From Mytilisepta virgata (Eukaryota > Mollusca > Bivalvia > Mytilida > Mytilidae): DNA of 64,000 bases. Where the stretch lies: positions 34,424,230-34,488,229 of the forward strand of contig CM051516.1 of the NCBI GenBank assembly GCA_028015205.1, written 5' to 3'. Below, piece after piece: positions 26,701 to 64,000 of the stretch. Below the pieces are notes generated by a model. The model saw nothing but the letters and a program-made list of their open reading frames with translations. It had not been told where the DNA came from and did no database searches. Each line of letters begins with the position of its first letter. Positions within the stretch are counted from its first letter, which is position 1. The translations under genes and the position numbers were made by a program.

Positions 26701-29700
26701 AGACTAAAAGAAGGCTGTTATCTGCCTTTGATTAACAGTTGTCTGATCAATGATTCCTTATGGTGAGTTAGTAAGAGCAGATTATTTGCAGTATTGTATT
26801 GATTTAACACACAAAAATGTATATCACTAGTAAATTTAAAAGGAATATCATTTTCACCCAAGCTTAGTACTTCATTCACATAGAAAATTACACAGATTAT
26901 TATATGGATAAAAACAAGAAAAGATGGATCATATCAGTAATGAATATTCTAAATTACGCCTTTATTTATCTGATATTTTAAGGACTGTATTGAATCAACA
27001 TAGATTAACCTTAGTCATTACAAAAGTTTGTTCACAGATAATAGTACTGTAATAGTTCACCATCAGTAGAAATTACTGGTTTATATATTGTACCAAAAAT
27101 TTTTTTTTAAAGTACACTATCTCCTGACAATGTCTAATCATCTTGTTTTGTTTACAGTATATGCTGAAAAAACCAGATGCTGTGATGTATAAAAGGTAAA
27201 TATTGTTATACAGTTCCAGTTTCACCAGATTTGGAGAAGTGGGAGATATAGTCTCCTAGCTGGCCTGGTCTCCTTGTCATATACCTGAAGCACAGTGAAA
27301 GAGAAACTAAATCTTTAATTATCAGAAAATTTTCTCTCTGACTAGTATATTCAGATAAAAGTGACAACTTTTCTCATTTTCTCCCTGTTTCTCTCAGTGC
27401 TTCTAAAAATATCAAGCTGGGTAAGCCTTGCATGCAATTAGTTCTCCATTATTATGTGAATTATCTGTGAACTGAACTCAGCACCAACACTTATTATGGG
27501 ATGATGACGGAATGACTAATATAAAGATAGGATACGGTGAATTGTTTATATCTATTGACATAAGTTCCCTTTTGTTTTGGAGTTATGGGACTTTATTCAT
27601 AAAAAAGGGGGTATTTTCCAGTTTTTGGACTCTTACTCAAAAATGCTTTGAGCAATTTTCATGAAACTTAGGTGAATTGTATTTATTTTATTTATTTGTA
27701 TTTATTGACACAAGTTCCTTTTCGATTTTTATAAATTTCCGGTTTTAGGTTTTGGAGTTGAGTGACTTTATTCATAAAAAAGGGTGGGTTTTTCCAGTTT
27801 TCGGACAATAACTTAAAAACGCTTTGATAAATTTTCGTGAAACTTTGGTGACTTGTTTATATCTATTTACGTAAGATCCCTTTTGTTTTTTTTATAAATT
27901 TCCTATATGACATATCAGAGTTATGGAACTTTATTTGCTGAAAAATCGTTGAAAACTGTCAATTTTCACATTTTGGATGGTTATGGAATTTTATTCGTTC
28001 AGATTTCAGAGTTATGGAACTTTGTTCATTAAAAAGGGGGAATTTTTCACATGTCACTCTATCTTAAGAACGCATTTTCAGATTTACTTCAGACTTTACA
28101 CATACAGTTGTGTGTTGTGATAGTCTATTAAAGGTCTTTATACTTTTTTATGAAATTTCGATTTTCTGCTCCAGAGTGGGATGTGACTTGTTCATCAAAA
28201 TTAAGGAACAAAATCAAAGGGTCTATATGTTAATTGGTAAAAATTAATTTTCTGTGCTCATTGCACATCTGATTATTAAAGCATGACACCCTAAATCCCT
28301 AAATATTTTTGATTGACCTAAATGGAGTGTCCTGTTGTTTTGTCATGACAAAACATTTATGTCTGTCAGATTATCTTATTGTTTATTTTGTAGGAAAAAT
28401 ATTCTTAGACCATTTGAAGATGAAACACCAATAGTAAGTATTGGGAAATTGTGTCAGATTATTTATGAATATAGTCTGTTGTGAAAGTATTGATATGATT
28501 TATTTAAAAAATCAAAGGTAATTTCCAAGCAATAGATGTATTATTTTAAACACAACCAAATTTTAGGCCAATTTTTTTAATAACTTTCCTACAGAGCAAG
28601 TTCCTAAGATGTATAAAAAGGTAATTTTTGTCTTAAATTCCAAAAAAATAATGATAAAATAGCAATCCATCAAATTTTATCCTGATAGAAAATGTAACAG
28701 TCATTGGAAAAAAGTGAAGGCATAAGTTAATTCAGATAAATTGTTTTTTTTCCTAGGAATTTTTCTCAAAGAAAACAGATTCATCTTTATTTATGTTTGG
28801 ATGCCATTCAAAGAAAAGACCTGACAACTTAATATTAGGTATAGTATAAACATCATTAGACTTTATTCTGTTCTGTTTGTAGTTGGTCTTGGTGGCAAAC
28901 TGGTTGAGGTAGTTTATCTTAACTAGTAATGACCAGTATGAGATAACGTCAAATCCTAACTAGTAATGACCAGTATGAGATGATGTCAAACCCTAACTAG
29001 TGACCAGGTTTGCTTGACTGTGAGATAAATTTACAAAGATGGACAGTTTTTTATCCAAGATTGATATTTTTTCTAGGTAATCAATCATCCACCAGTACAA
29101 AAATGACAGTCACAATATATCCAGTTGTGCTAAAGTAACCCAAAGCGAAAACAAACTGTTCTATATGTTACCATATGCCAGACTTCAGTTTATTTGAAAT
29201 AGATTATCTCCCTTTATAGTTATAGAGACTTGTCATTCTATTAAAAAAGGCTCAAGTAGGATATAGGGAAAAGTAGTTTTATATATATTCCCCTATACAA
29301 TTTGTAAAATGTACAGTGGACAATTTTATAATTAAAATTCATAACATTAAATAAAAAGTCATTGCAAACAATAAATTTTAATATGTACAGTTGGTTTATA
29401 AAAATGGATGTAACTCTTTGATATCCTGTAGCAACTGAAAATATACATCCCCATTTTCATGCCCGAAACGATATCTGTACATGAATTCATCAATGATGAT
29501 GGGAAGTTTATCGTGACCAATGCCCTTCATTTTCTTTATCCGAAGTTTTGCTAGTCCCCACAATCCCTCTATTGTGTTCGTACAACATCCACTCTCCGAT
29601 TTGAATTCCTTGGAATGGTTAACAGTGTCATGTGTGTATCCAGCGTCCGTCAATGTAAAGTACGCACCCCATTTGTCTGAGTAAATCGTTGACCCCTTGG

Positions 29701-32700
29701 AAATGTAGCTTGTGATAATCGGTATTAAAGTGTCTTTGTCCCGTTTATCTACAATGTGAAAAAATGCGTTTCTAGTGCTCCTTTCCACAGCTCCAAATAC
29801 CCAGGTTGTTTGGTGACCTTTTCCACGGTGGTATTTTCTTTTTTTCCCAAAAAGACTCTCGTCTATTTCAATGATGTTTCCCGAAACATCTCCATTCAAG
29901 ACACAAGGTGACTTAATAAGTTTTCTTGTACATAAATCCCGTAGAATTCCGAACCATTCAATGACAGTTGTGTGGCTAATTTGTGGTAAAAACTTTTCAC
30001 ATTCATAAATCTGCATGTCAAGTCCGAAGAAATATACAAGTAGGGTTATCGTTGTCAATTTAAGTCTTGATCCCTGTAAATATAAGGGGAGAAATCTTTT
30101 TCATATACCATTTATACCAGTCCAGAGGAGGATGGACGTTTGCACACTGATACCAGTAATTGCATAACCTATACATAATATTATAATATCCTCAGATGGC
30201 GAACTTAATAAACATAAGGATACGCTTTATTCAATTGTATGGCTTTTTATTGACACTTTTTTTATTTTTTTTTCTTTTATCTCTGTTTGTTGCTGATTAT
30301 TATATATGTATACATTGTATCTGGATTACGAATCACATGCTATATTACTGTGTTATGTCCAATAAAATTTGAATAATGTGTTAAATTGCCGAGCGGAAAA
30401 CAATATCACGTAAAATCTTCAATGTTTTGTCATCATACAAACTAAAACTTCACACTCATTGTGCAGCGAAACAACATATTAAACTGATGTTGAAAGACTG
30501 TATATATCTTGGACATAGATTTTCTAATTGTTAAATACCGGTACATATTTACAACATTATTATTTAACAGTCTTCGGTATTTTATTTTGTTTCTTCTCAT
30601 TACCGATAAGAATAGTTTTACCGACAATATCGAACTTGACGTTTCCGAGAAATTTGATAAAAAGTAAGTGTGACGGACGGATGGGTTCGAATCTCGTCGT
30701 TGGTATTATTGATGTGCTGTCCTGCCTTTCTGTTACATGTTTAGTCCTTGATATAAGTAAGTAGTGTGCAAAATATCCTGTAGATAGGACTTGACGTTCC
30801 CGAGAAATTTGATAAAAAGTAAGTGTGACGGAAGGATGGGTTCGAATCTCGTCGTCGGTATTATTGATGTGCTGTCCTTCCCCTCTGTTACATTTGGCGC
30901 CCAACGGAATAATTCACGGTTTGAGTCTCTGTGTTAGAGTTCATCAGCAGAGTGCTGACTCTTGAAGAGGAGGGGGGGGTTGACAGAGCGACCTAGTTGC
31001 GTTGTTGCTTTCCAGTCGTTCCGTCCCCAAGTAGTTCCGGCCCAAGTCGTTCCGTTCCAAAGTAGATCAGGCCTAATTTTAAAAGGTTTACCGACATAGT
31101 GATGAAAGTTGCAGATGTTTTTTTTTTTTTTTTTTTTTTGCCGACATTAGCTTGTATTTTCGTAATTGTGCCGCTAAGATCAACAGACATTGTTCTGTAT
31201 TGTTCCGTAATTAGGAGTGTAGAAAATTATGACTACGGAAGTAATTCAGGTGTAAGCCAAATAATTAAATCATGTGCTTCTAATTATAAATAACAACGGT
31301 TAGTTGTTTTTATTAACAAGAAGCCAGTTCTGTTGAACCAACGCACTTCTGCGTGTCCACATAATTTTACCATTGCAAATCGTCGGAACCATCACTGTTC
31401 CGCGTGACTATCGCACCTCCGAGTAGGTCGATGTTAATTCCTCGACTCTGATATTATTTCAAACGTTGTAATATGTGGGTAAAAATATATGTAGGAAAAA
31501 ATTAACATACTTGGAATAAAGATCCATCTCTGATGCTTCGTTTTGAATAGCACTGGTTGCATCGGTAAATTTCTCCGTCACTGCTGTCCTTTTTCGGCAC
31601 CAATTTCATTTCTATGTTGCAAATCTTGCACGTTGCTGTACTTCGTAGAAGCCCATGTTCCCTCAAGTATGCAATGCACCCACTTTCAGTTGCTAAAATG
31701 GCACAGATGGTAAGAATTCCGGGGCCTTTTGGTTTCTTTTGTATTTCGTTGGTTTCCATGTTTTGTCTGAAACGTCGGGAAAAGATGCGCAACGTGACGT
31801 CGACAAATGTCGCGATACAAATTGTGACGTTACACAATAACGGACAGCGGACCTCCGTCGACGATGGCAGCGAGGAGATTTTCCGAGTCGGACGTTTTTA
31901 ATCTATACAGAACTGCATTCCGTATTAAGATTGATTGGGAGAACATTTTAGAAGAAAATGTACACCAATTCCTGGATGTCTACGAAAGGTCAACCAACTG
32001 TTTGAAGAATATGGTGATACCTACCCTGTTTGCTTTGACTTCTTCAATGTGTGGACCCAAGACGAGAGTTAAATCTTCTGCTGGATTTTCAACGGTTTTG
32101 AACTCATACATTTTCTCAGTATGTGACCCTGGCGGTGGTAAATCGCTTACGTATGAACGTGTTATGGAGCCTGTATTAGAATCATTTCACATGAAGACGG
32201 GAAAACGTTTGAACATGGAAAACTACACCACAGCCGGGATCCAAAATCATCAAGTGGATAACAAAGGAATGGGGCTTATTACTAGTGATGAAGGAAATAG
32301 GTTTCTATCATCAGTGCATGCAAAACAACTTAAAGGGGAATCTGAAAGTGCCTTGCTGTGCAAGATGTGGAACGGTAAGGGGGATTTCTCCAATCTTGCT
32401 AGAGGAACTCGCGGCTTCACTGAGACGTCCATGTCAATACTGTTATTGATACAACCACAGCCGTTACTAAACGAACTCCAAAATTTCACTGAAAATGATG
32501 GCTTCTTGGATAGATTTTTGTTTTTTGTCTGTAAACCAAAAATGTATCAGTCCAATGAATTAAGAGAGAATTACGCCGTGATGGAGACTTACAAAATTAG
32601 AGATTTCATCACTGTGTTTGACAAGATGTACGAAGTTCACACCAAAGAGCAGCTGATATACACCCTGGATGAGGAAGCTCAAGAAGAGTATGACAGGGTA

Positions 32701-35700
32701 GTGGATGGGTATGCAGAGCATATCAGTAACAGATATAATTCAGGTAATGTCCAAAAATTTATTTCAATACATAAAACTTGAGAAAAAAAAACTTTCTACA
32801 ATCCTGTATTTTGCATGGTGGTGCTCCATATTAAAGGAGTGTAAATGCTAATATACCGCGCTGTGTGTATATATCCTGTATAGGAAAACCTCCATACAAC
32901 GTAATGTTTAAGCATAAAAAATAACATAAACTGTTAGTCTTCTGACTACTGCCACGCCTCACAATTAATATAAAAGTAACAATAAATTCGGATGTATGAG
33001 GGGTCCTTCTAAAAAGAGCCCGAGACCGGATTTAGAGCCCGAGCAGTATAAATAAATCAATGTTTACTTTTTCTTCAAATTGCCACATTTTTATTGACTC
33101 TGTGTGTGATTAAAATTTAAATATCATATTTCGATAAATATATTAATTTTGTATCAAAATAAGACCTAAATATTAATTTTGCATGACAATTAAAGGTCAT
33201 TAAAGGCTCGGGCAAATTTTTAGTCCGGGACGCTAAGTACCAGCTCGGGCGCTTTTTTTGTGGAACCGTGTATACAGGGGTCTGTGGTTTATGGTTAAAT
33301 CGGCCTGCTTTTGGGGTTGTATCGGACTACTAGGAAACGCCATAGAGGTTTTTTCTGACATTTAAAAAGGGGGGGGGGGGGGGTCACAAGCCATTTCCAA
33401 AAGCAACGACCACCACCAATGCGACTCTTACACCTGGGGTCTTATACCCAGTCATAGTTTTCAAGGAAATCTAGGATAATTAAACTACGAAAGATGTTTG
33501 ATTACTTTATATTGTACCAATAAAATAACTAATGGATGCATCCAAAGAATTATGACGGATTATTTTATTAAAGCTTATATAAATAATTGCATCCTGGCAG
33601 GGACTGTATATACTAGTATATATTGTCCCTGATCCTGGCAACCGATTCACTGAAAGTCATAAGGGCTACGACCGCTCGTAACTTCTTAACAAACTACATG
33701 TATATAAAGTAAGCGTAGTTGTAGTACTGACGATCTTTAGTGAAATGGTCGTCAGAGTCTTAAATGTCTCTAAGTTATCTTTTGTCAGACTAACACAATA
33801 TAATTAAAATTTATTATAAACCTTGAACTTTTTGACATTCAAGATTAGGAGATCTCTACACTGTTCTCTAAGAAATGGACGGAAATCGTTCATTCATTCT
33901 TCGGACAGTTGATCCAATTTTAACAGGCGTGAAGCTACGTAAGGCTATATACTAGGCTATAACCTGGTCTCAAATTTGGTAAGAATGGGTGGCATGATAT
34001 ATTTCTAAATCTAAATGTCAATCTATAGATTTTGCCATGTCAATTCCAGTGATAATAGACGATGCATTTTATCTTCGCCAAAAAAAAATCATTTCCGAAA
34101 AAAAAATCTCCGCTAATAAAAATATATCATCTACGCGAGAAAAATCTTTCCTCTCAGCGAATGCATTATATTTCAACTTCGCGAATGAAATTATTTCACT
34201 TCAAATACTAGAACGTATATAAGGACGTGATTACATTTTGATAGTGAAATAATTGGTATCCTTTAAGTTAATATGTGATCAAACACACAGTTTGAAGAAT
34301 TGCATATGGGATCGATAATATGAAATTGTGGAAAACTGACTTTGAAACATTTTAAAGCATCTGCCGTAGCATATGCATTGTGATTGATGTTGCTAGAACT
34401 TCACGTTTAGGCCATTAATAACACTAACACTTTTTATCTGATTTCCCCCCATTTTTATCGCCCAAAGGGAGCAAAATAGGTATCTTCAGTTAATCTAGTT
34501 GACTACATATGGCAAAATTGGTAAATTTGCGGAGATGATACATGCTTTTAGTTTTTTGATTCGCTGATATTATTTAAATATAAAACATTGGGAAAGATGA
34601 AATATGACCAGTATTAAAAAGTAGTGGAGATGAAATGCATCCATACTAGAGTATAATTAAAATATACTGTCTTGAAATTTTGTGCGGTTGAATTGTGTAA
34701 TGATTAGGCCATTTGATTTCTAATTTGATAGATGATGAAGAAGATAAGGAGAATGTAAATCCGACACAGACTGAAAACTTGCATATGACATCGAGTAAAG
34801 ACACTATTCACATACTACGGTTGGCAGCACTACTTCACATCATCAACATGTACATTGGAAACAAATTGGAGGAGACCGAAACTTATTCAACCATCATTAG
34901 AAAAGAGACTGTTAAAAGAGCTCAGATGTTGTACAATTGCCTAAAGCAGCAGAAATCTGTGTTTGTACAGGTATGTTTTTTTAACTTACGGTTAATGCTA
35001 AAAAATTAGGCCAAATAACGGTAATTTTTCAGCCTTTACGATAAATTTGACATTTGTTCTATACAATATTAAAAAAAAACGGAAATGGTAGTAAATGTCA
35101 AGGAGACAACCACCTATCTCCAAAGTTTCCGCTCGAGAAAAAATACATCTAGAGGTCGCCACATGATATGTAACAATTGGGAAATTTCCTCCATGTAGCA
35201 AGCTCTAAATTAGTTTTTTTTACGATTGACGATATATTGTTTCTTCAAATGACGATAACGATACAAATTGCGGTAATTTCACAACTAACCCTAACATTTG
35301 TTTTGACGGTTAACGGTAAAATTTTACTCGATTTGACGTTAACGATAGACGAAAAGAGGCGTTTGACGCTTGACGATAAAGGGCATTCCTACCATTACTT
35401 AAGTGTGGGGTCCTCACTGTTCATTGAAGATCTTACGGTGGCTTTGGGTTATTGTTTTGTTCACCACCTTGGGGTCGTTGTATCTTTAACACACTCCCCG
35501 TTTCCCGGATTTTTTTTCTATTTTTTACTTAATGCTACATAGTAACTCAAATCCCGATATTATATGATTATTATAACAATCATATTTTGTAATGTTTTTT
35601 AGGCTCTGATGAACAGTACACAGAGGCTAGAGAGCGGAAGAATGGTGAAAGTTAAACCTTTCAGGAATAAAGTTCTCAGATGTGTTTGCCAATATGAAGG

Positions 35701-38700
35701 ACCAGTAGTCCCAGTCCGAGATATATATAGACATATTAAGAAAGCTGTTTGTAATGATGTGAAAAGTAAGTTTGATAGTTTTGGAGTGTCTGTCAGTGTT
35801 GATGATATTGAAGATCAAATTATAGAAAACCTGACTGTACATGTAAATCAGAAGTCTGCCTTACACTTTACCTAATTATATCAGTAGATGCATGGGAATC
35901 GATGTAATACGCAATTGTTCGTTGTAATTCGCAGTATGCTGGTATTTACTATTCACAGCTTTCTGATCGTCAGGAACTAAATTTGCATTAGCGTAAGGTT
36001 GTTTTTGAACACACGAAAAATTGTGTGCCCAAAATGTATAAATTAATACAGAGAGTGAATTGTTTGAATTATTTCTTTATGTTGTTTAATATTTTTGGTA
36101 GGAATTTCAATGCATATTGATTTAAATCGCTATTTCTTGGATTCTAGACATTTTTGTTTTAATTTGTGCGTAATTGATTCAGACAAATTGTTCGTTGTAA
36201 TTCGCAGTATGCTGGTATTTACCATTCACAGCTTTCTGATCGTCAGGAGCTAAATTTGCAATAGCGTAAGGTTGTTTTTCAACACACGAAAAATTTTGTG
36301 CCCAAAATGTATAAATTAATACAGAGAGTGCATTGTTTGAATTATTACTTCATGTTGTTTAATATTTTGGGTAGGGATTTCAATGCATATTGATTTAAAT
36401 CGCTGTTTCTTGGATTATAGAAATTTTTGTTTGAATTTATGCGTAATTGATTCTGAAAAATTGTTAGATTTGATTTCCGAGTTGAATTATTTTGTGTTTG
36501 TCTAATCTATCCACTAAAATTAATATTAAAAAAAAAAGTAAAAAAAAAAGATAAGCACAGTACTTATCATCAGAAACACTAAAATAATTTGTAAATTTCA
36601 GTTGAACTTGAAAGATTGCAGAATGAGGGCTTTGGCAGAATGCATTCAGCTGTGGTTGGAAAAGCCAAAAGAGATGTCTTCTTCAAAGAAATACCGTCAT
36701 CACTGGGAGACAACAGCGCCTATATTAAAGCTGCTGAAGTAAGCCTCCAAGAGTACAATCAGAAGTTCCAAGTACCGCCAAAAGATGACTTTCTGAAAGC
36801 TGTATTGCCAAATCATCACCAATTTGAGAGATTTGAGGAGAACATGATTATTTAATGTAACAATATTCACAGTTTCCGCATGATGTAATTGTATTATGTT
36901 TGTTTAAATGAAAAATGTGTGTGATATGGCTATTATCATGATTATAATGTTTTGAATTAGTGGGTCCACTCAGTTTTCGATACGGTAGAATTTTTAAATA
37001 TATGTTTGAAAAACAAGGTCGATTTGCTTCATGATTTGTATAAGTATATTAAATACCCTAATTTTTTTAACAATGTGTATTTTTGGTCTATGTCAATTTT
37101 TTCTATAGTTCTAAAAAGTCCTTAAATAAATTGTTAGCAGAAAGTTCCAACTTGCTGTAAATAATATATAATGTATCCAAAATTCACAAATGCAGGTACA
37201 TGTACCATGATCGAACATACCATCATCAAAATTTGAATTATATTGTTTTTATAACGGCATTCAAGGTCTCATGAGTTTATTATAATTTTTTCCACTGTGA
37301 AATAAATTTTGTTATTTCTTTTATGGCGAAAGATTTATTACTTTTGCATGTGTAAATGTAATAATTAATTTGAATGTCATAATAAAACAGTAAATCTTAA
37401 TTGATTGTTTGTAGAGCGCTTGAGGAGTACATGTATTCTATTGTACCCAGAAATTCATGAATAATCATCAAATGAAAACTGAATAATTATTCATAAAATA
37501 TTCAAAATGTCATATGGAACACGTTCATGAAATTTAAAAATTCTGGGACATTTCATTAACCAAAAATATTCATAATCTATATTAATTATTGATTTTTTTT
37601 CTCATGAATACTCATAAACTTCAATCATTCACGAATATTCATGGATTTACAAAAAATTTTTAAAAAATATGTGATATTTAACTGCCATCTTGTACTGGCC
37701 ATGACACTAGTGCTGATAGAACATTATTTCTGCTTCGGTATATCTGGAAACTCATTGAATATGAAAATAATAAACTATGCGTGTTCATGAATTCTAACTG
37801 GCATCACATTCAATGATATGAAGTGAATGTACATGTGAGAAAAATGCACACAAATCCAAGTATGTATATGTACATGTAAAAACTAAAGTTTATCAAGGAC
37901 AGGACTTTTAGTCATGTCTTCATCTTGATGTCACCTGACAAGCTTTCCACCCATAAACAGGTTCAACCACACCGCTGACATTTGTTAGTGCCGGTACCAA
38001 GTCCGGCTATCCTGTTCTCCTATTAGTTATTTATGTTTGTATCTTGTCTTCCTTTCGTGTTGGTTTGAGTTGCGCTTGCTTGGTGGGTGATGTTTGGTTT
38101 GTGGTTCTCGTCATTGTGAGTGTTTTCTGTTATCTCGTTTTTGTAACACTATGGACCGAATCAAAATGTCGACCGTGTCAACCTGTCGACCGTGTCAACT
38201 TGTCGACACTGTCAACCCTATGGACATGATCAAACTGTCGACCCCGTCAACCTGTCGACCCCGTCAACCTGTCGACCCTGTCAACCTGTCTACACTGTAA
38301 ACCCTATCGCCAGAATCATACTGTCGACGTTGTCAACCTTGTCAACCTGTAGACCCTGTCAACCCTTGTGGAAACTTGTAAACCATCTTTTATCATCTTT
38401 ATTTTGACCGAATCAAAATGTCGACCATGTCAACATGTTGACCGTGTCAACTTGTCGACACTGTCAACCCTATGGACATGATCAAACTGTCGACCCTGTC
38501 AACCTGTCGACTCCGTCAACCTGACGACCCTGTCAACCTGTCAACACTGTAAACCCTATGGACAGAATCATACAGTCGACGTAGTCAACCTTGTCAACCT
38601 GTCGACCCTGTCAACCCTTGTGGAAACTTGTAAACCGATTTACAACTGTATGCATCCGAGGAGGGAACTATATTCCCCTATACAATACTTGAACCTTAAA

Positions 38701-41700
38701 AAAGTCTTCCCTTGTAAATATCATCTACAGTTCAGTTCTCTGACAAAAATTTTCTTTTGTTATGTGTTTTTAATTGTATTCCCTGATACATTCAGATATC
38801 TGTTACTTTTTTAGGTTGTCTCCCTTTTATAGATATCAACAGTATGGTTACAAGATTTTTATAAGTACTGGGACAAAAATGTCTTTAAATTATATGTGGA
38901 AAGCAGTCTTAATGTTAAATTGTCTACATTAAAGATGTCAAATCATTAACTGATAGAAAGAAATAAAAACAAAAAACATACACAGGGAAAGTCCTTGAGA
39001 CAAAAACCAAGAAAAAGAATTCTAAAAATGGGGCCCACACTGCATAACAAACTTATCAGCAACATATTAAAATGTCAATGAAATTTAACCAAAGTGTGTG
39101 AAATAAAAACTATAATTTTAGAGAGTTCTGTGTTGTTTGTATAAAAAAGTCTGTAACAATAGAATGTATTCATAAGTTAACATTTGATTGAAATAAAACC
39201 CACGGATAGGAAATTCACATCTAATAGATTTTAATACAAAGTTAGAGAATTCTCATCTTATAGATTTAAATACAAAGTTAGATCTCTTATAAATTGCTTT
39301 CCCAGTATGACTAATGAATTGATTGTGCCTATTGTGTTAAATTTTACATTTTGTTTGTGTCCCCAGGTGGTTTGCCCTGGTAGATATTAGATATGGATAA
39401 TATTACATTATGAACTACAGTATAACCCCCTAAAAGATTCAGTAATATGACATTTAATTTTCTTTCTTTTAAGTTATTAGATTCAATTGTTGTTACTGTT
39501 TCAACCCCCATTAATATTATGAAAAAAAATCTTCCTAATAGACAAAGAAAAAACGGTCTAGAACATCATAAGTTGTCTCCCTTGATGAATTGATTAGATT
39601 ATCTACCCTGAGAAACAATGATTACTGTCTCATTTTCCAGGCTGATTGTTTGACTTCCATGTATTGGATGTGATAGAACTTGGTGTTGACAAATTATCTC
39701 TATTTTCCAGGCAGATTGTTTGACTTCCATGAAATGGATATGATAGAACTTGGTGCTGACAAATTTTCTCTATTTTCCAGGCAGGTTGTTTGACTGCCAT
39801 GTACTAGATATGATAGAACTTTGTGTAGACAAAATTTTCTCTATTTTCCAGGCAGATTGTTTGACTTCCATATGTTGAATATGATAGAACTTGGTGTAGA
39901 CAAAATTATCTCTATTTTCCAGGCAGATTGTTTGACTTCCATGTACTAGATATGATAGAACTTGGTGTTGAGAAATTTCAGTCCATGGCAGATATTGAGG
40001 TATGCTGTACAATACAGTTTTAGCTGTTAGTTTTTCTATATAAATGTAGTATCTCATTTCTTTAATGTGGCACCTTTAAAGGTCAATACAAATCTTTTAA
40101 ATGACCAATACAAACATTGTAGAATTCAGAGAATTTGAATAGTGGTTGACCACTGGGGGCTGTCCCTTATCATAGTCATAAATTATTGTTAAAATTTAAC
40201 GTCATTTTTCATATCTATTGTTTACTTTGTCTCACCCTTCCATCCACCACTGAAAAAATATATGAGTTTAAATAAGAGGAAGAGAGATTATGAATATCAG
40301 AGAAGGGTTTTAGTAGTTAGTTGTAACCTTTAAACCGGACCTGTTTACAACCATGATTTTGGTGTAGTTTCTATTAATTTTGACCCTCAAATTACGCTTT
40401 ACGGAAATTGCAGGAAATGACATTTTGTATTAAAATTTTTTTTGGGGACACCCCCTCTGCCCTGCAAAATTCAGACAACAGAAAATACTAAATATTGAAA
40501 ACTATACTTTCTAAAGATAGAAACTACATTACTAGCTTTAAGGGGGTAAACTGGTTTGCTTTATGCTTTTGCATCCTAAATGTTCCCATGGTATTATTCT
40601 TTGTCTCATATTTTCTGGTGATGCTAGTAACTTTATGATTTTAGGGTCCTAAATGTTCTCATGGTACCAAGCCTTGTTTAATATTTTCTGGTGATGCATT
40701 TGAGCAAGACTTGGAACATAAAAGGTTAAAGAATCTATTTATAGGTAAGTAATAAGTTTTTAGGATATTGTGTAATAATGTTCTGTCCAGAACTGTAATA
40801 CTTTTGTTTATAAACAGGAATTAATGTAATATTTTTTTAAATTGAAATATGAAAATTGGAACAGAGTGAACAGAAAAGAAAATCGAAACCACAAATCACT
40901 TTATAGTGTTAAATCTTATATTAATATCAGATATTGTAATAAAAATTACAAGAATTACCAACCATTAAATTTTTGCACTTTTAAAGAAATCTCATATACT
41001 GTCAGATGAGTACAAGAGATTTTATTATAAAAGTGAAATTTATTTTTGAAAATAAGTGTCAAAGAATAAGAAGCTACATTTTCATCTAGTTTTATATAAT
41101 AAAATCTGAAAATTAATAGGCCTTATGAATATACCCACCAACAGCGGTCGAAACGTGCGGGTAGTGCGCCCCTTGACAGGGATCCTACCTAGGCAGACAG
41201 GAGGTTGGCCTTCATTTTCATTGCGCCTGTAGGTTTCGTATTCAACCCCATGACTCACGCACATGTTAGACTCCTTGGACGGGTCAGGTGGAGGATTGCA
41301 ATAAACCTTATCATGCCATCTTTGCATAGCTACATTTGACATCACAGTAATGAATGTTAAGATTCCCTGGGGGGGGGGGGGGGGTAATGCTGAATCACAA
41401 ACAAACTACAATTTTCCTAAAAATTAGATAATGGTTTGATATTAACTCTCATTATTTAATTTAGATTTATTAAAAAACTCACCAGAGGCAATTTAAATAA
41501 ATCAAGTTGATATCAAGCGATATCTAATTCTCACTCATTGTGAAACCTATAAATATCACATGTGTTGTATATTTCCATTACACAATAACAAGTACAAAGC
41601 CATAATTATAAAACAGGGGAGGTAACCATCATTGGAATATTATCAGATATGTTTTTATTTTAGATTTTTTCCGAGGACCAGTTATAAAGAATATACGCCT

Positions 41701-50359: not shown

Positions 50360-52975
50360 GTCGAGCCTGCGACTTTAGTCGCAGAAAGCTCGACATAGGG
50401 ATAGTGGTCCGGCGACGGCGGCGTTAACTAACTTCTTAAAAGCTTTATATTTTAGAAGGTGGAAGACCTGGATGCTTTATACTTTGTATATAGATGCCTT
50501 ATGTTACGAAGTTTCCGTCTGTCATATGTACATTGTCCTTGGCCTCATTTTCATGGTTCAGTGACTACTTGAAAGAAAAAGTTAACATTTTTTGTAATGT
50601 TAATTTCTCTCTTATTATGAGTAATAGGATAACTATATATGGTATGTGCGTACCTTACAAGGTCCTCATCCCCGTCAGACAGTTTTCAATTGACCTCGAC
50701 CCCATTTCAAGGATCAGTGAACAAGGTTAAGTTTTGGTGGTCAAGTCCATATCTCAGATACTATAAGCAATAGGTCTAGTATATTTGGTGTATGGAAGGA
50801 TTTTAAGGTGTACATGTCCAACTGGCAGGTGTCATCTGACCTTGACCTCATTTTCGTGGTTCAGTAGTTATAGTTATGTTTTTGTGTTTTGGCCTGTTTT
50901 TCGAATACTGCATGCAATAGGTCTACTATATTTGGTGTATGGAAGGATTTTAAGGTGTACATGTCCAACTGGCAGGTGTCACCTGACCTTGACCTCATTT
51001 TCGTGGTTCAGTAGTTATAGTTATGTTTTTGTGTTTTGGCCTTTTTTTCGAATACTATGCAATAGGTCTACTATATTTGGTGTATGGAAGGATTTTAAGG
51101 TGTACATGTATAGCTGGAAGGTGTCATCTGACCTTGACCTCATTTTCGTGGTTCAGTAGTTATAGTTATGTTTTTGTGTTTTGGTCTATTTTGAATACTG
51201 TATGCAATATGTCTACTATATTTGGTGTATGGAAGGATTTTAAGGTGTACATGTCCATCTGGCAGGTGTCATCTGACCTTGACCTCATTTTTGTGGTTCA
51301 GTAGTTATAGTTATGTTTTTGTGTTTTGGCCTGTTTTTCGAATACTGCATGCAATAGGTCTACTATATTTGGTGTATGGAAGGATTTTAAGGTGTACATG
51401 TCCAACTGGCAGGTGTCACCTGAACTTGACCTCATTTTCGTGGTTCAGTAGTTATAGTTATGTTTTTGTGTTTTGGCCTTTTTTTCGAATACTGTATGCA
51501 ATAGGTCTACTATATTTGGTGTATGGAAGGATTTTAAGGTGTACATGTCCAGCTGGCAGGTGTCATCTGACCTTGACCTCATTTTCGTGGTTCAGTAGTT
51601 ATAGTTATGTTTTTGTGTTTTGGCCTGTTTTTCGAATACTGCATGCAATAGGTCTACTATATTTGGTGTATGGAAGGATTTTAAGGTGTACATGTCCAAC
51701 TGGCAGGTGTCACCTGACCTTGACCTCATTTTCGTGGTTCAGTAGTTATAGTTATGTTTTTGTGTTTTGGCCTTTTTTTCGAATACTGTATGCAATAGGT
51801 CTACTATATTTGGTGTATGGAAGGATTTTAAGGTGTACATGTATAGCTGGAAGGTGTCATCTGACCTTGACCTCATTTTCGTGGTTCAGTAGTTATAGTT
51901 ATGTTTTTGTGTTTTGGTCTATTTTGAATACTGTATGCAATATGTCTACTATATTTGGTGTATGGAAGGATTTTAAGGTGTACATGTCCATCTGGCAGGT
52001 GTCATCTGACCTTGACCTCATTTTTGTGGTTCAGTAGTTATAGTTATGTTTTTGTGTTTTGGCCTGTTTTTCGAATACTGCATGCAATAGGTCTACTATA
52101 TTTGGTGTATGGAAGGATTTTAAGGTGTACATGTCCAACTGGCAGGTGTCACCTGAACTTGACCTCATTTTCGTGGTTCAGTAGTTATAGTTATGTTTTT
52201 GTGTTTTGGCCTTTTTTTCGAATACTGTATGCAATAGGTCTACTATATTTGGTGTATGGAAGGATTTTAAGGTGTACATGTCCAGCTGGCAGGTGTCATC
52301 TGACCTTGACCTCATTTTCGTGGTTCAGTAGTTATAGTTATGTTTTTGTGTTTTGGCCTGTTTTTCGAATACTGCATGCAATAGGTCTACTCTATTTGGT
52401 GTAGGAAGGATTTTAAGGTGTACATGTCCAGCTGGCAGGTGTCATCTGACCTTGACCTCATTTTCGTGGTTCAGTAGTTATAGTTATGTTTTTGTGTTTT
52501 GGCCTGTTTTTCGAATACTGCATGCAATAGGTCTACTCTATTTGGTGTAGGAAGGATTTTAAGGTGTACATGTCCAACTGGCAGGTGTCATCTGACCTTG
52601 ACCTCATTTTCGTGGTTCAGTAGTTATAGTTATGTTTTTGTGTTTTGGTCTATTTTAAATACTGTATGCAATAGGTCTACTATATTTGGTGTATGGAAGG
52701 ATTTTAAGGTGTACATGTCCATCTGGCAGGTGTCATCTGACCTTGACCTCATTTTCGTGGTTCAGTAGTTATAGTTATGTTTTTGTGTTTTGGCCTGTTT
52801 TTCGAATACTGCATGCAATAGGTCTACTATATTTGGTGTATGGAAGGATTTTAAGGTGTACATGTCCAGCTGGCAGGTGTCATCTGACCTTGACCTCATT
52901 GTCATGGTTCAGTGGTTATAGTCCAGTTTTTGTGTTTTGGCCTGTTTTTCGAATACTATATGCAATATGTCTGAT
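50360..52975 (-). mobile_element. Hairpin-ended element with about 15 copies of a 147-bp unit (copy D)
   Basis: The left edge has the nested hairpin GTCGAGC...GCTCGAC enclosing CTGCGACT-tt-AGTCGCAG (50360-50394), then cggcgacggcgg. This is the inverse of the right end of copy A. The core unit is marked by ggaaggattttaaggtgtac at about 50794, 50941, 51086, 51232, 51378 and on to 52843. It is the inverse of the copy A core (tgacctcattttc against gaaattgaggtca). The block starting at 51222 is repeated at 51955, a 733-bp (five-unit) duplication. No TGTCTCGCC end is found at the right, so the element is truncated or fades near 52975. Confidence 0.7.
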
Positions 52976-59996: not shown

Positions 59997-60210
59997 TTAT
60001 AAAACCAAAATAATTACCATTTTCAACAAGTTCAAATGGATTTATCAAGTTAAAACATATAAAATAAAATGATAAGATTAACATTATTCATGAATATAAA
60101 AAAGTATTTCTTCTGCTCAAAATATTAAAGCAGGTTTTGGCAACCTTATAATAACATTCTTCTGACTGAAACAGAAATATGAACTTTTGTTCATCAGATA
60201 AACCATCAAG

Positions 60211-63200
60211 TACATATAATTGTCATCAATACCTATGCAGAGTAAGTCTGCCACTATGTCAACAGTACATATAATTGTCATCAATACCTATGAAGAGTAA
60301 GTCTACCACTATGTCAACAGTACATATAATTGTCAACAATACCTATGTAGAGTACGTCTACCACTATGTCAACAGTACATATAATTGTCATCAATATCTA
60401 TGTAGAGTACGTCTGCCACTATGTCAACAGTACATATAATTGTCATCAATACCTATGTACAGTAAGTCTACCACTATGTCAACAGTACATATAATTGTCA
60501 TCAATACCTATGTAGAGTACGTCTACCACTATGTCAACAGTACATATAATTGTCATCAATACCTATGTAGAGTACGTCTGCCACTATGTCAACAGTACAT
60601 ATAATTGTCATCAATAACTATGTACGCTAAGTCTACCACTATGTCAACAGTACATATAATTGTCATCAATACCTATGTAGAGTATGTCTGCCACTATGTC
60701 AACAGTACATATAATTGTCATCAATACCTATGTAGTGTACGTCTACCACTATGTGAACGGTACATATAATTGTCATCAATAACTGTGTACGGTAAGTCTA
60801 CCACTATGTCAACAGTACATATAATTGTCATCAATACCTATGTATAGTAAGTCTACCACTATGTCAACAGTACATATAATTGTCATCAATACCTATTTAG
60901 AGTAAGTCTACCACTATGTCAACAGTACATATAATTGTCATCAATAACTATGTACGGTAAGTCTACCACTATGTCAACAGTACATATAATTGTCATCAAT
61001 ACCTATGAAGAGTAAGTCTACCACTATGTCAACAGTACATATAATTGTCATCAATACCTATGTAGAGTAAGTCTACCACTATGTCAACAGTACATATAAT
61101 TGTCATCAATACCTATGTAGAGTACGTCTACCACTATGTCAACAGTACATATAATTGTCATCAATACCTATGTAGAGTACGTCTACCACTATGTCAACAG
61201 TACATATAATTGTCATCAATACCTATGTAGAGTACGTCTACCACTATGTCAACAGTACATATAATTGTCATCAATACCTATGTAGAGTACGTCTACCACT
61301 ATGTCAACAGTACATATAATTGTCATCAATAACTATGTACGCTAAGTCTACCACTATGTCAACAGTACATATAATTGTCATCAATACCTATGTAGAGTAT
61401 GTCTGCCACTATGTCAACAGTACATATAATTGTCATCAATACCTATGTAGAGTAAGTCTACCACTATGTCAACAGTACATATAATTGTAATCAATACCTA
61501 TGTATAGTAAGTCTACCACTATGTCAACAGTACATATAATTGTCATCAATACCTATGTAGAGTAAGTCTACCACTATGTCAACAGTACATATAATTGTCA
61601 TCAATACCTATGTAGAGTACGTCTACCACTATGTCAACAGTACATATAATTGTCATCAATACCTATGTATAGTAAGTCTACCACTATGTCAACAGTACAT
61701 ATAATTGTCATCAATACCTATGTAGAGTACGTCTACCACTATGTCAACAGTACATATAATTGTCATCAATACCTATGTAGAGTACGTCTGCCACTATGTC
61801 AACAGTACATATAATTGTCATCAATAACTATGTAGGCTAAGTCTACCACTATGTCAACAGTACATATAATTGTCATCAATACCTATGTAGAGTATGTCTG
61901 CCACTATGTCAACAGTACATATAATTGTCATCAATACCTATGTAGTGTACGTCTACCACTATGTGAACGGTACATATAATTGTCATCAATAACTGTGTAC
62001 GGTAGGTCTACCACTATGTCAACAGTACATATAATTGTCATCAATACCTATGTATAGTAAGTCTACCACTATGTCAACAGTACATATAATTGTCATCAAT
62101 ACCTATGTATAGTAAGTCTACCACTATGTCAACAGTACATATAATTGTCATCAATAACTATGTACGGTAAGTCTACCACTATGTCAACAGTACATATAAT
62201 TGTCATCAATACCTATGTAGAGTACGTCTACCACTATGTCAACAGTACATACAATTGTCATCAATACCTATGTAGAGTACGTCTACCACTATGTCAACAG
62301 TACATATAATTGTCATCAATACCTATGTAGAGTACGTCTACCACTATGTCAACAGTACATATAATTGTCATCAATACCCATGTAGAGTACGTCTACCACT
62401 ATGTCAACAGTACATATAATTGTCATCAATACCTATGTAGAGTACGTCTACCACTATGTCAACAGTACATATAATTGTCATCAATACCTATGTAGAGTAC
62501 GTCTACCACTATGTCAACAGTACATATAATTGTCATCAATAACTATGTACGCTAAGTCTACCACTATGTCAACAGTACATATAATTGTCATCAATACGTA
62601 TGTAGAGTATTTCTGCCACTATGTCAACAGTACATATAATTGTCATCAATACCTATGTAGAGTAAGTCTACCACTATGTCAACAGTACATATAATTGTAA
62701 TCAATACCTATGTATAGTAAGTCTACCACTATGTCAACAGTACATATAATTGTCATCAATACCTATGTAGAGTAAGTCTACCACTATGTCAACAGTACAT
62801 ATAATTGTCATCAATACCTATGTAGAGTACGTCTACCACTATGTCAACAGTACATATAATTGTCATCAATACCTATGTATAGTAAGTCTACCACTATGTC
62901 AACAGTACATATAATTGTCATCAATACCTATGTAGAGTACGTCTACCACTATGTCAACGGTACATATAATTGTCATCAATACCTATGTAGAGTAAGTCTA
63001 CCACTATGTCAACAGTACATATAATTGTCATCAATACCTATGTAGTGTACGTCTACCACTATGTGAACGGTACATATAATTGTCATCAATACCTATGTAC
63101 GGTAAGTCTACCACTATGTCAACAGTACATATAATTGTCATCAATACCTATGTAGAGTATGTCTACCACTATGTCAACAGTACATATAATTGTCATCAAT

Positions 63201-64000
63201 ACCTATGTAGAGTACGTCTACCACTATGTCAACAGTACATATAATTGTCATCAATACCTATGTAGAGTACGTCTACCACTATGTCAACTACATATAATTG
63301 TCATCAATACCTATGTAGAGTAAGTCTACCACTATGTCAACAGTACATATAATTGTCATCAATGCCTATGTAGAGTATGTCTGCCACTATGTCAACAGTA
63401 CATATAATTGTCATCAATACCTATGTAGAGTACGTCTACCACTATGTCAACAGTACATACAATTGTCATCAATACCTATGTAGAGTACGTCTACCACTAT
63501 GTCAACAGTACATATAATTGTCATCAATACCTATGTAGAGTACGTTTACCACTATGTCAACAGTACATATAATTGTCATCAATACCTATGTAGAGTACGT
63601 CTACCACTATGTCAACAGTACATATAATTGTCATCAATACCTATGTAGAGTACGTCTACCACTATGTCAACAGTACATATAATTGTCATCAATAACTATG
63701 TACGCTAAGTCTACCACTATGTCAACAGTACATATAATTGTCATCAATACCTATGTAGAGTATGTCTGCCACTATGTCAACAGTACATATAATTGTCATC
63801 AATACCTATGTAGAGTAAGTCTACCACTATGTCAACAGTACATATAATTGTCATCAATACCTATGTAGAGTACGTCTACCACTATGTCAACAGTACATAT
63901 AATTGTCATCAATACCTATGAAGAGTAAGTCTACCACTATGTCAACAGTACATATAATTGTCATCAATACCTATGTAGAGTTAGTCTACCACTATGTCAA
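60211..64000 (+). repeat. 55-bp satellite array, running off the window
   Basis: The unit acctatgtagagtacgtcta - ccactatgtcaacagtacat - ataattgtcatcaat is repeated about 69 times with few changes. Diagnostic variants recur at fixed distances: atgtgaacgg at 60751 and 61961 (1,210 bp), then 63061 (1,100 bp), and ataattgtaa at 61481 and 62691 (1,210 bp). So blocks of 22 units have been copied. One unit near 63287 lacks two bases. There are no unique spacers. Confidence 0.95.

Follow-up and report, generated by a model that had tools for sequence, protein, structure and literature searches.

Merlin transposons are usually described with one gene, the transposase. In other systems a DDE transposase has an ATPase encoded next to it, namely TnsC of Tn7, MuB of Mu and IstB of IS21. 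We analyzed a 64,000-nucleotide stretch of the genome of the bivalve Mytilisepta virgata (assembly GCA_028015205.1, contig CM051516.1, positions 34,424,230 to 34,488,229 of the forward strand; hereafter the window), which contains a Merlin-type transposon with a DDE transposase gene head to head with a gene for an ATPase of the DUF3987 family, a layout that has the ATPase beside the transposase as in Tn7, Mu and IS21. Overall we lean slightly toward reading the ATPase as a predicted helicase that would act on the repeat-rich ends of the element during cutting or copying.

Comparison with described systems

The element shares with the Merlin/IS1595 group, as presented in excerpts of a survey (PMC8101967), a PF12762 DDE domain, an N-terminal zinc ribbon, GG termini, 8-bp target duplications and internal tandem repeats. 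It departs from that group in gene content: the excerpts describe IS1595 members with a single transposase gene and make no mention of an ATPase, an accessory protein, a helicase or a second open reading frame, whereas a second gene is present here at 13 of 13 loci of families A to C. The paired elements are also unusually long for Merlin, at 6.8-13.9 kb. The three curated Merlins in the extracted part of a bivalve transposon study (PMC10294476), by contrast, average 1,635 bp, and that part mentions neither a helicase nor an ATPase.

Kolobok likewise is a eukaryotic DDE transposon with an extra nucleic-acid enzyme; according to excerpts of PMC9587614, a RecQ helicase is carried by KolobokH of fungi and by Kolobok-1_CCri of a rhodophyte, in the latter on the complementary strand. 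Unlike Kolobok, the element described here has a transposase that matches IS1595 models, and its helper is a DUF3987 P-loop ATPase, not RecQ.

The DUF3987 literature that we found concerns bacteria, archaea, phages and mobile elements. In the portion of PMC5862659 consulted, DUF3987 domains are predicted to be the helicases of mobile-element replication, sited between primase and winged-helix domains, and to replace known helicases in primase fusions. The ATPase of the window resembles these bacterial and archaeal proteins (PMC5862659; phrog_2373) in that it belongs to the same Pfam family above the cut-off, has P-loop motifs and continues into a C-terminal region after the core, but those in PMC5862659 are fused to a primase, whereas the gene here is split by introns, has no primase that we noticed, stands beside a DDE transposase and occurs in an animal. 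We found no publication on Merlin together with DUF3987 in the open-licence literature (Repbase was outside the search). The pairing of Merlin with DUF3987 appears to be new; that of a transposon with an accessory helicase is already known from Kolobok with RecQ.

Boundaries and gene content of the element

Alignment of the window with eight fetched copies of the same family (family A) delimits a 9.4-kb Merlin (IS1595-type) transposon at 29249-38695; its termini start with GG, and the 8-bp target duplication around it is perfect (Table 1). A preliminary description of the window, made from the sequence without database searches, had drawn the two-gene transposon as 29396 to 36855; both genes do lie there, but the element is wider, and aligning copies to define the ends, as was proposed, recovered the termini at 29249 and 38695. 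With one copy as the query, seven other full-length copies end at the same termini and have unmatched flanks, and the window shares both termini. All eight other fetched family-A copies are 13.4-13.9 kb long and carry both genes. The window copy is without about 3.1 kb of the left arm, adjoining the left end, and about 1.1 kb of the transposase intron, and both of its genes are still open. Its left-arm junction bears ATATTCCCCTATACAAT, the letters of the inner right terminus.

Table 1. Features of the two-gene Merlin element and its flanks (positions in the window)
Feature	Positions	Strand	Basis
Left 8-bp target site duplication, TTAAAAAA	29241..29248		same letters as 38696-38703
Left terminus, starts GGCTCAAGTAGGATATAGGG	29249..29281	+	TCAAG onward common to 8/8 other fetched family-A copies; 29281 is the last base shared with one
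Left-arm deletion junction	29282..29298		~3.1 kb present in 8 other copies, absent from window copy
Transposase exon 2: PF12762 DDE domain, D154, D216, E252	29396..30073	-	profile match and translation
Transposase-intron point	31293..31297		8 other copies ~1.1 kb longer here
Transposase exon 1: zinc ribbon CxxC...CxxC, C44/C47/C67/C70	31511..31759	-	spliced translation
Divergent intergenic region, 104 bp between start codons	31760..31863		spliced gene models
ATPase exon 1: Walker A, Walker B, IQP, candidate arginine finger	31864..32743	+	translation, Pfam, alignment
ATPase exon 2: LRLAALLH motif	34732..34970	+	translation
ATPase exon 3: winged-helix-like region by look (candidate)	35603..35765	+	translation
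ATPase exon 4: stop at 36855	36602..36855	+	translation
Right subterminal array, 17-bp unit TGTCGACCCTGTCAACC, 22 copies	38167..38555	+	irregular copies to ~38618
Right terminus, inward reading GGTTCAAGTATTGTATAGGGG	38675..38695	-	copy alignment
Right 8-bp target site duplication, TTAAAAAA	38696..38703		same letters as 29241-29248

The two transposase exons, on the minus strand, join in frame to give 308 amino acids, and the exon-2 frame matches both PF12762 (E 2.3e-25) and the IS1595 model NF033547 (E 4.8e-29), the IS1595-type DDE domain that characterizes Merlin. The four exons of the ATPase, on the plus strand with GT/AG introns, encode 511 amino acids, which match PF13148 (DUF3987) with 101.7 bits (E 6.4e-29; curated cut-off, 27 bits). 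The preliminary description had read the locus as an intact IS1595/Merlin DDE transposase with a zinc ribbon and the residues D154, D216 and E252, lying 104 bp from a four-exon DUF3987-like ATPase gene on the other strand; splicing and profile searches agree with it on each of these points.

Three relatives of the ATPase (P0001, P0002 and P0015) likewise exceed the PF13148 cut-off. In an alignment of 23 sequences, consisting of exon 1 of the window and 22 of 24 relatives (P0005 and P0019 were excluded), the Walker A lysine, the Walker B glutamate, the glutamine of IQP and the candidate arginine finger are invariant, and the Walker B aspartate is kept in at least 90% of the sequences. The four-exon layout was found again in one family-B and one family-C copy. 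P0001 aligns to 99% of the window ATPase, and it and three further relatives (P0148, P0150 and P0152) are 515-561 amino acids long, on contigs of 2-3 kb, and open along 91-100% of P0001; such long open frames on such contigs fit spliced transcripts.

The window ATPase also matches phrog_2373, labelled 'DNA helicase' (E 1.6e-13), as do two full-length relatives (4.3e-11 and 8.8e-15). Its matches to two phage primase profiles, which cover the later part of each, are weaker (3.6e-6 and 4.2e-5). It differs in family from TnsC, MuB and IstB: no Pfam-A match to these transposition-helper ATPases was obtained with the window protein and three relatives. A PADLOC scan of P0001 returned nothing. Two Mytilus edulis database proteins named RAD54 (P0002 and P0019) match the transposon ATPase, and the RAD54 label therefore looks like an annotation error.

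Two further observations concern the transposase gene and its promoter side. The intergenic region contains GTCGAC at 31799-31804 and at 31857-31862, the sole two occurrences in the window element outside the terminal array. We considered these as sites of autoregulation in the divergent promoter and rejected that reading, as they are confined to family A and the equivalent family-B and family-C units are missing from the intergenic regions of those families. Within the transposase intron, two 110-bp direct repeats at 30629-30893 contain GGGTTCGAATC, which is tRNA B-box-like; the repeats are possibly a short interspersed element (SINE).

Linkage of the two genes across the genome

A profile search with PF12762, in which 150 of 154 candidates were scored, gave 127 matches in the genome, and a single-sequence query with the ATPase protein gave 58 exon-level matches. 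Every one of the 13 stop-free matches to ATPase exon 1 lies on the opposite strand from a PF12762 match, head to head with it and 1.3-3.1 kb away. These loci divide into family A (nine loci on six contigs), family B (two) and family C (two), with the second gene present in all. The eight family-A loci outside the window are at least 99% identical to it over the main aligned pieces, and the multi-copy spread was recent; the two other families bear the same gene pair at 47-57% protein identity, and the transposases of the three families are mutually 55-63% identical. Damage is seen at B1 (L017), where the P-loop and Walker B are altered, and at a family-A locus broken near the ATPase start (L014); the exon-3 match of another family-A locus (L011) is shortened.

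The ATPase had been proposed to be a travelling partner of the transposase, and its occurrence at nine plus four loci of three families supports this; the tasks suggested for it in the preliminary description (target choice, strand handling or replication-coupled transposition) are hypothetical. At none of the 13 loci of families A to C does the transposase stand alone, and the ATPase is multi-copy, not a fixed single-copy host gene, with its 13 stop-free main exons all beside a Merlin transposase. Ten of the 114 other PF12762 matches were sampled, namely the nine that score next highest and the one ranked twelfth. Where they align, their identity to the paired families is 38-50%, which places these ten in other families, and they have no adjoining ATPase match. 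The pairing thus marks a lineage within Merlin and not Merlin as a whole: the two-gene elements form a lineage.

The proportions of differing nonsynonymous (pN) and synonymous (pS) sites between families are 0.33-0.35 and 0.78-0.82 for ATPase exon 1 (0.73 and 0.76 for shuffled codons), and 0.25-0.28 and 0.84-0.88 for transposase exon 2. Synonymous sites are thus saturated while the protein is kept, indicating long-lasting purifying selection on both genes.

Termini, target duplications and subterminal arrays

Read inward from either side, the family-A termini follow GG(C/T)TCAAGTA...TATAGGG, and GG(C/T/A)TCAA stands at both ends of the window copy and of families B and C, giving the GG start that is typical of Merlin. 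Terminal inverted repeats, for which the Merlin range was taken as 24-462 bp, measure 33 bp at 85% in family B, about 32 bp (28/32, counted after removal of the flanking duplication from a 42-bp match) in family C, and only about 20 bp (16/20) in family A. Exact 8-bp target duplications flank four of nine family-A copies, both family-C copies and neither family-B copy, one of the latter having 7 of 8 positions. Overall, duplications are exact at 6 of 13 loci, the window included, nearly so (7/8) at one more and absent at six, and their length accords with the 8 or 9 bp of Merlin. The six exact duplications have G or C at 11 of 48 bases, an A+T-rich look, and share no motif by eye. The five family-A copies that have no duplication (around L009, L010, L012, L013 and L015) are short of 2-3 terminal bases (GGC or CC) on one side or on both, and their trimmed ends stop at TCAAG or TTGA(A/G); these copies may represent end-trimmed re-insertion or loss of flank.

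In all three families, the full-length copies examined have arrays of short repeats near each end, the two ends being inverted relative to each other. The units are of 17 bp in family A (TGTCGACCCTGTCAACC, which a full-length copy has inverted in its left arm) and of 8/16 bp in families B (TGTCGATGTGTCAATA) and C (GCAGGTCGGCAAGTCG). Internal tandem repeats are also reported in the excerpts of the Merlin survey (PMC8101967). Such arrays may be binding sites for the ATPase or for the transposase. As a signature of the ATPase they were rejected, since a Merlin locus without the ATPase, L024, has arrays too; this locus has a 71-bp inverted repeat at 97%, and the unit of its arrays is palindromic and CAGAATTGTATATATACAATTCTG-like. 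In family A, one full-length copy carries in its left arm (L029:3838-4862) roughly 1 kb of CTAACC repeats, degenerate and telomere-like, some 175 units in all; this part is absent from the window copy.

Relatives in other species

A first search returned 24 relatives of the ATPase, and a profile search brought these to 45 clusters; the named sources are Mytilus edulis, M. californianus, M. coruscus, Mercenaria mercenaria and the nemertean Tubulanus polymorphus. For the transposase, 784 relatives were found, 120 of which were listed. For 11 of the 45 ATPase clusters, the longest contig has, to the base pair, the same size as that of a transposase cluster among the 120 listed (of 784), and all 11 matches fall among the first 45 listed; at 60 shifted offsets, the number of equal-size matches was 0-4 (mean 1.0). 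Equal contig size is an indirect sign of a shared contig and says nothing on gene orientation. One equal-size pair is named, at 96,958 bp in Mytilus coruscus, and one, at 907 bp, is too small for both genes and is probably due to chance. By these sizes, gene pairing is indicated in other animals. In a transposase tree of 123 rows (from which 3 of the 120 listed sequences, each below 150 amino acids, were excluded), the 14 ATPase-linked rows sit in two groups, one of 13 rows (support 99) and one of 29 rows (support 87), with none among the other 81.

Role of the ATPase

The head-to-head arrangement at all 13 stop-free places makes it likely that the putative helicase aids movement of the element. 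In the mechanism that we propose, the zinc ribbon of the transposase would bind the termini and its DDE domain would make the 8-bp staggered joins. A ring of the ATPase would dock on the subterminal arrays via its C-terminal part and open the DNA or translocate along it, which could allow an unusually long Merlin to bring its two ends together and finish transfer or repair. Divergent start codons so close to each other, 104 bp apart here, would keep both proteins co-expressed.

Several points weigh against this proposal. Helicase activity and a role in transposition are both predictions from sequence, and the search for a relative in the PDB by sequence gave nothing credible, only one chance-level match (E 0.95). 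No ATPase was found beside the other 114 of 127 PF12762 matches by single-sequence search, which a very divergent ATPase could escape, and Merlin transposition as such therefore seems not to need it. Six ATPase places have no nearby PF12762 match, and all are decayed or partial: a truncated family-A copy without exon 1 (C14), a stop-ridden copy of most of exon 1 (C8), and partial pieces, three on C8 and one on C10. Target duplications are missing from five family-A copies (of nine) and from one of the two in family B, the left array is lost from the window copy, and L024, among the four non-ATPase Merlin loci examined, also has arrays. Mapped onto the transposase tree, ATPase linkage is no more clustered than in shuffles by the count of changes (13 changes against a mean of 13.5; 199 of 500 shuffles as low); the test scores every unlinked row as ATPase-free, and short contigs are the source of many rows. 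The Mantel correlation between ATPase and transposase distances is weak (r 0.32 with p 0.011 over 13 pairs; r 0.16 with p 0.11 over 14, the 907-bp contig included), so that some gene swapping or wrong pairing is possible.

The ATPase could instead be a regulator of target selection or of the transpososome, like TnsC, MuB and IstB, coating target DNA and recruiting or activating the transposase with no unwinding. Such helpers are usually encoded beside the DDE transposase, as this ATPase is, and the Walker A lysine, Walker B glutamate and candidate arginine finger kept in all 23 aligned sequences fit a regulator ATPase. We nevertheless regard this role as rather unlikely: Pfam assigns the window protein and three relatives to DUF3987 and to no helper family, and the six target duplications, though A+T-rich in look, have no evident motif in common. 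DUF3987 is, moreover, the predicted helicase stand-in of primase fusions in the excerpts of PMC5862659.

A cargo role, with the ATPase as a passenger (selfish or host-manipulating) that takes no part in transposon movement, appears distinctly unlikely. The same divergent layout is kept in three families with saturated synonymous sites, no stop-free main exon was found apart from a Merlin transposase, and the nearest annotated functions, DNA helicase and primase, would be unlikely cargo. A passenger can persist on its carrier if both are selected, and most other Merlin matches in the genome do go without such an ATPase; these two points speak for cargo.

Another view would make the ATPase an origin-binding replicative helicase, the 8-17-bp arrays its iterons, and the element a unit copied out by self-driven replication. 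The inverted arrays of short repeats at both ends of the full-length copies examined in all three families invite this view, as do the very similar family-A copies and the tie of DUF3987 proteins with winged helices to mobile-element replication in the excerpts of PMC5862659. It is very unlikely in this form, given that arrays also occur in a non-ATPase Merlin, that no circle junction was seen and that no primase or polymerase gene was noticed; the left-arm frames of at least 80 amino acids in one full-length copy are the transposase and short repeat or intron frames, the latter outside the searches, and no third gene is obvious in that arm. We consider it unlikely, too, that the DUF3987 ATPase treats the iteron-like end arrays as an origin, driving transposition in a copy-out or replicative mode, which would make the element a eukaryotic counterpart of bacterial replicon-type elements. 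A family-B tandem junction with a 4-bp spacer was tried as a circle junction and rejected, a truncated neighbouring copy being the better explanation. At this place, a 1.36-kb right-end fragment (L018:1-973 with L041:8212-8601) lies 4 bp upstream of a family-B left end, beside a 146-bp tandem array, and is identical to the right end of that same family-B element.

Finally, that the genes are neighbours without any relation, as when a transposon lands next to a host ATPase gene and is then spread by segmental duplication, could explain the missing target duplications of five of nine family-A copies but is refuted by the exact duplications that enclose both genes at 6 of 13 loci and by similarity among copies that stops at shared termini with differing flanks, while the pair also recurs in three families and, by equal contig size, in other species. 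A virus or provirus was likewise rejected, as no relative was confirmed among 26 pattern matches in IMG/VR contigs or among 12 in bacterial or archaeal genome contigs.

Other features of the window

Outside the element, the window contains a 147-bp tandem array at 50767-52972 (15 units, 95% match) in which long open frames are kept; for the one frame tested, all Pfam matches were below threshold. From 60209 to 64000, the end of the window, runs a 55-bp satellite with at least 69 units. An Rfam scan of the window returned nothing.

Implications for Merlin and DUF3987

The relatives of the ATPase suggest that some automatic annotations are wrong, as with the RAD54 names in Mytilus edulis. The pairing is stable in three families and past synonymous saturation, so that a eukaryotic lineage of Merlin holds an ATPase of a predicted helicase family, and DUF3987 gains a eukaryotic setting in which its function is testable.

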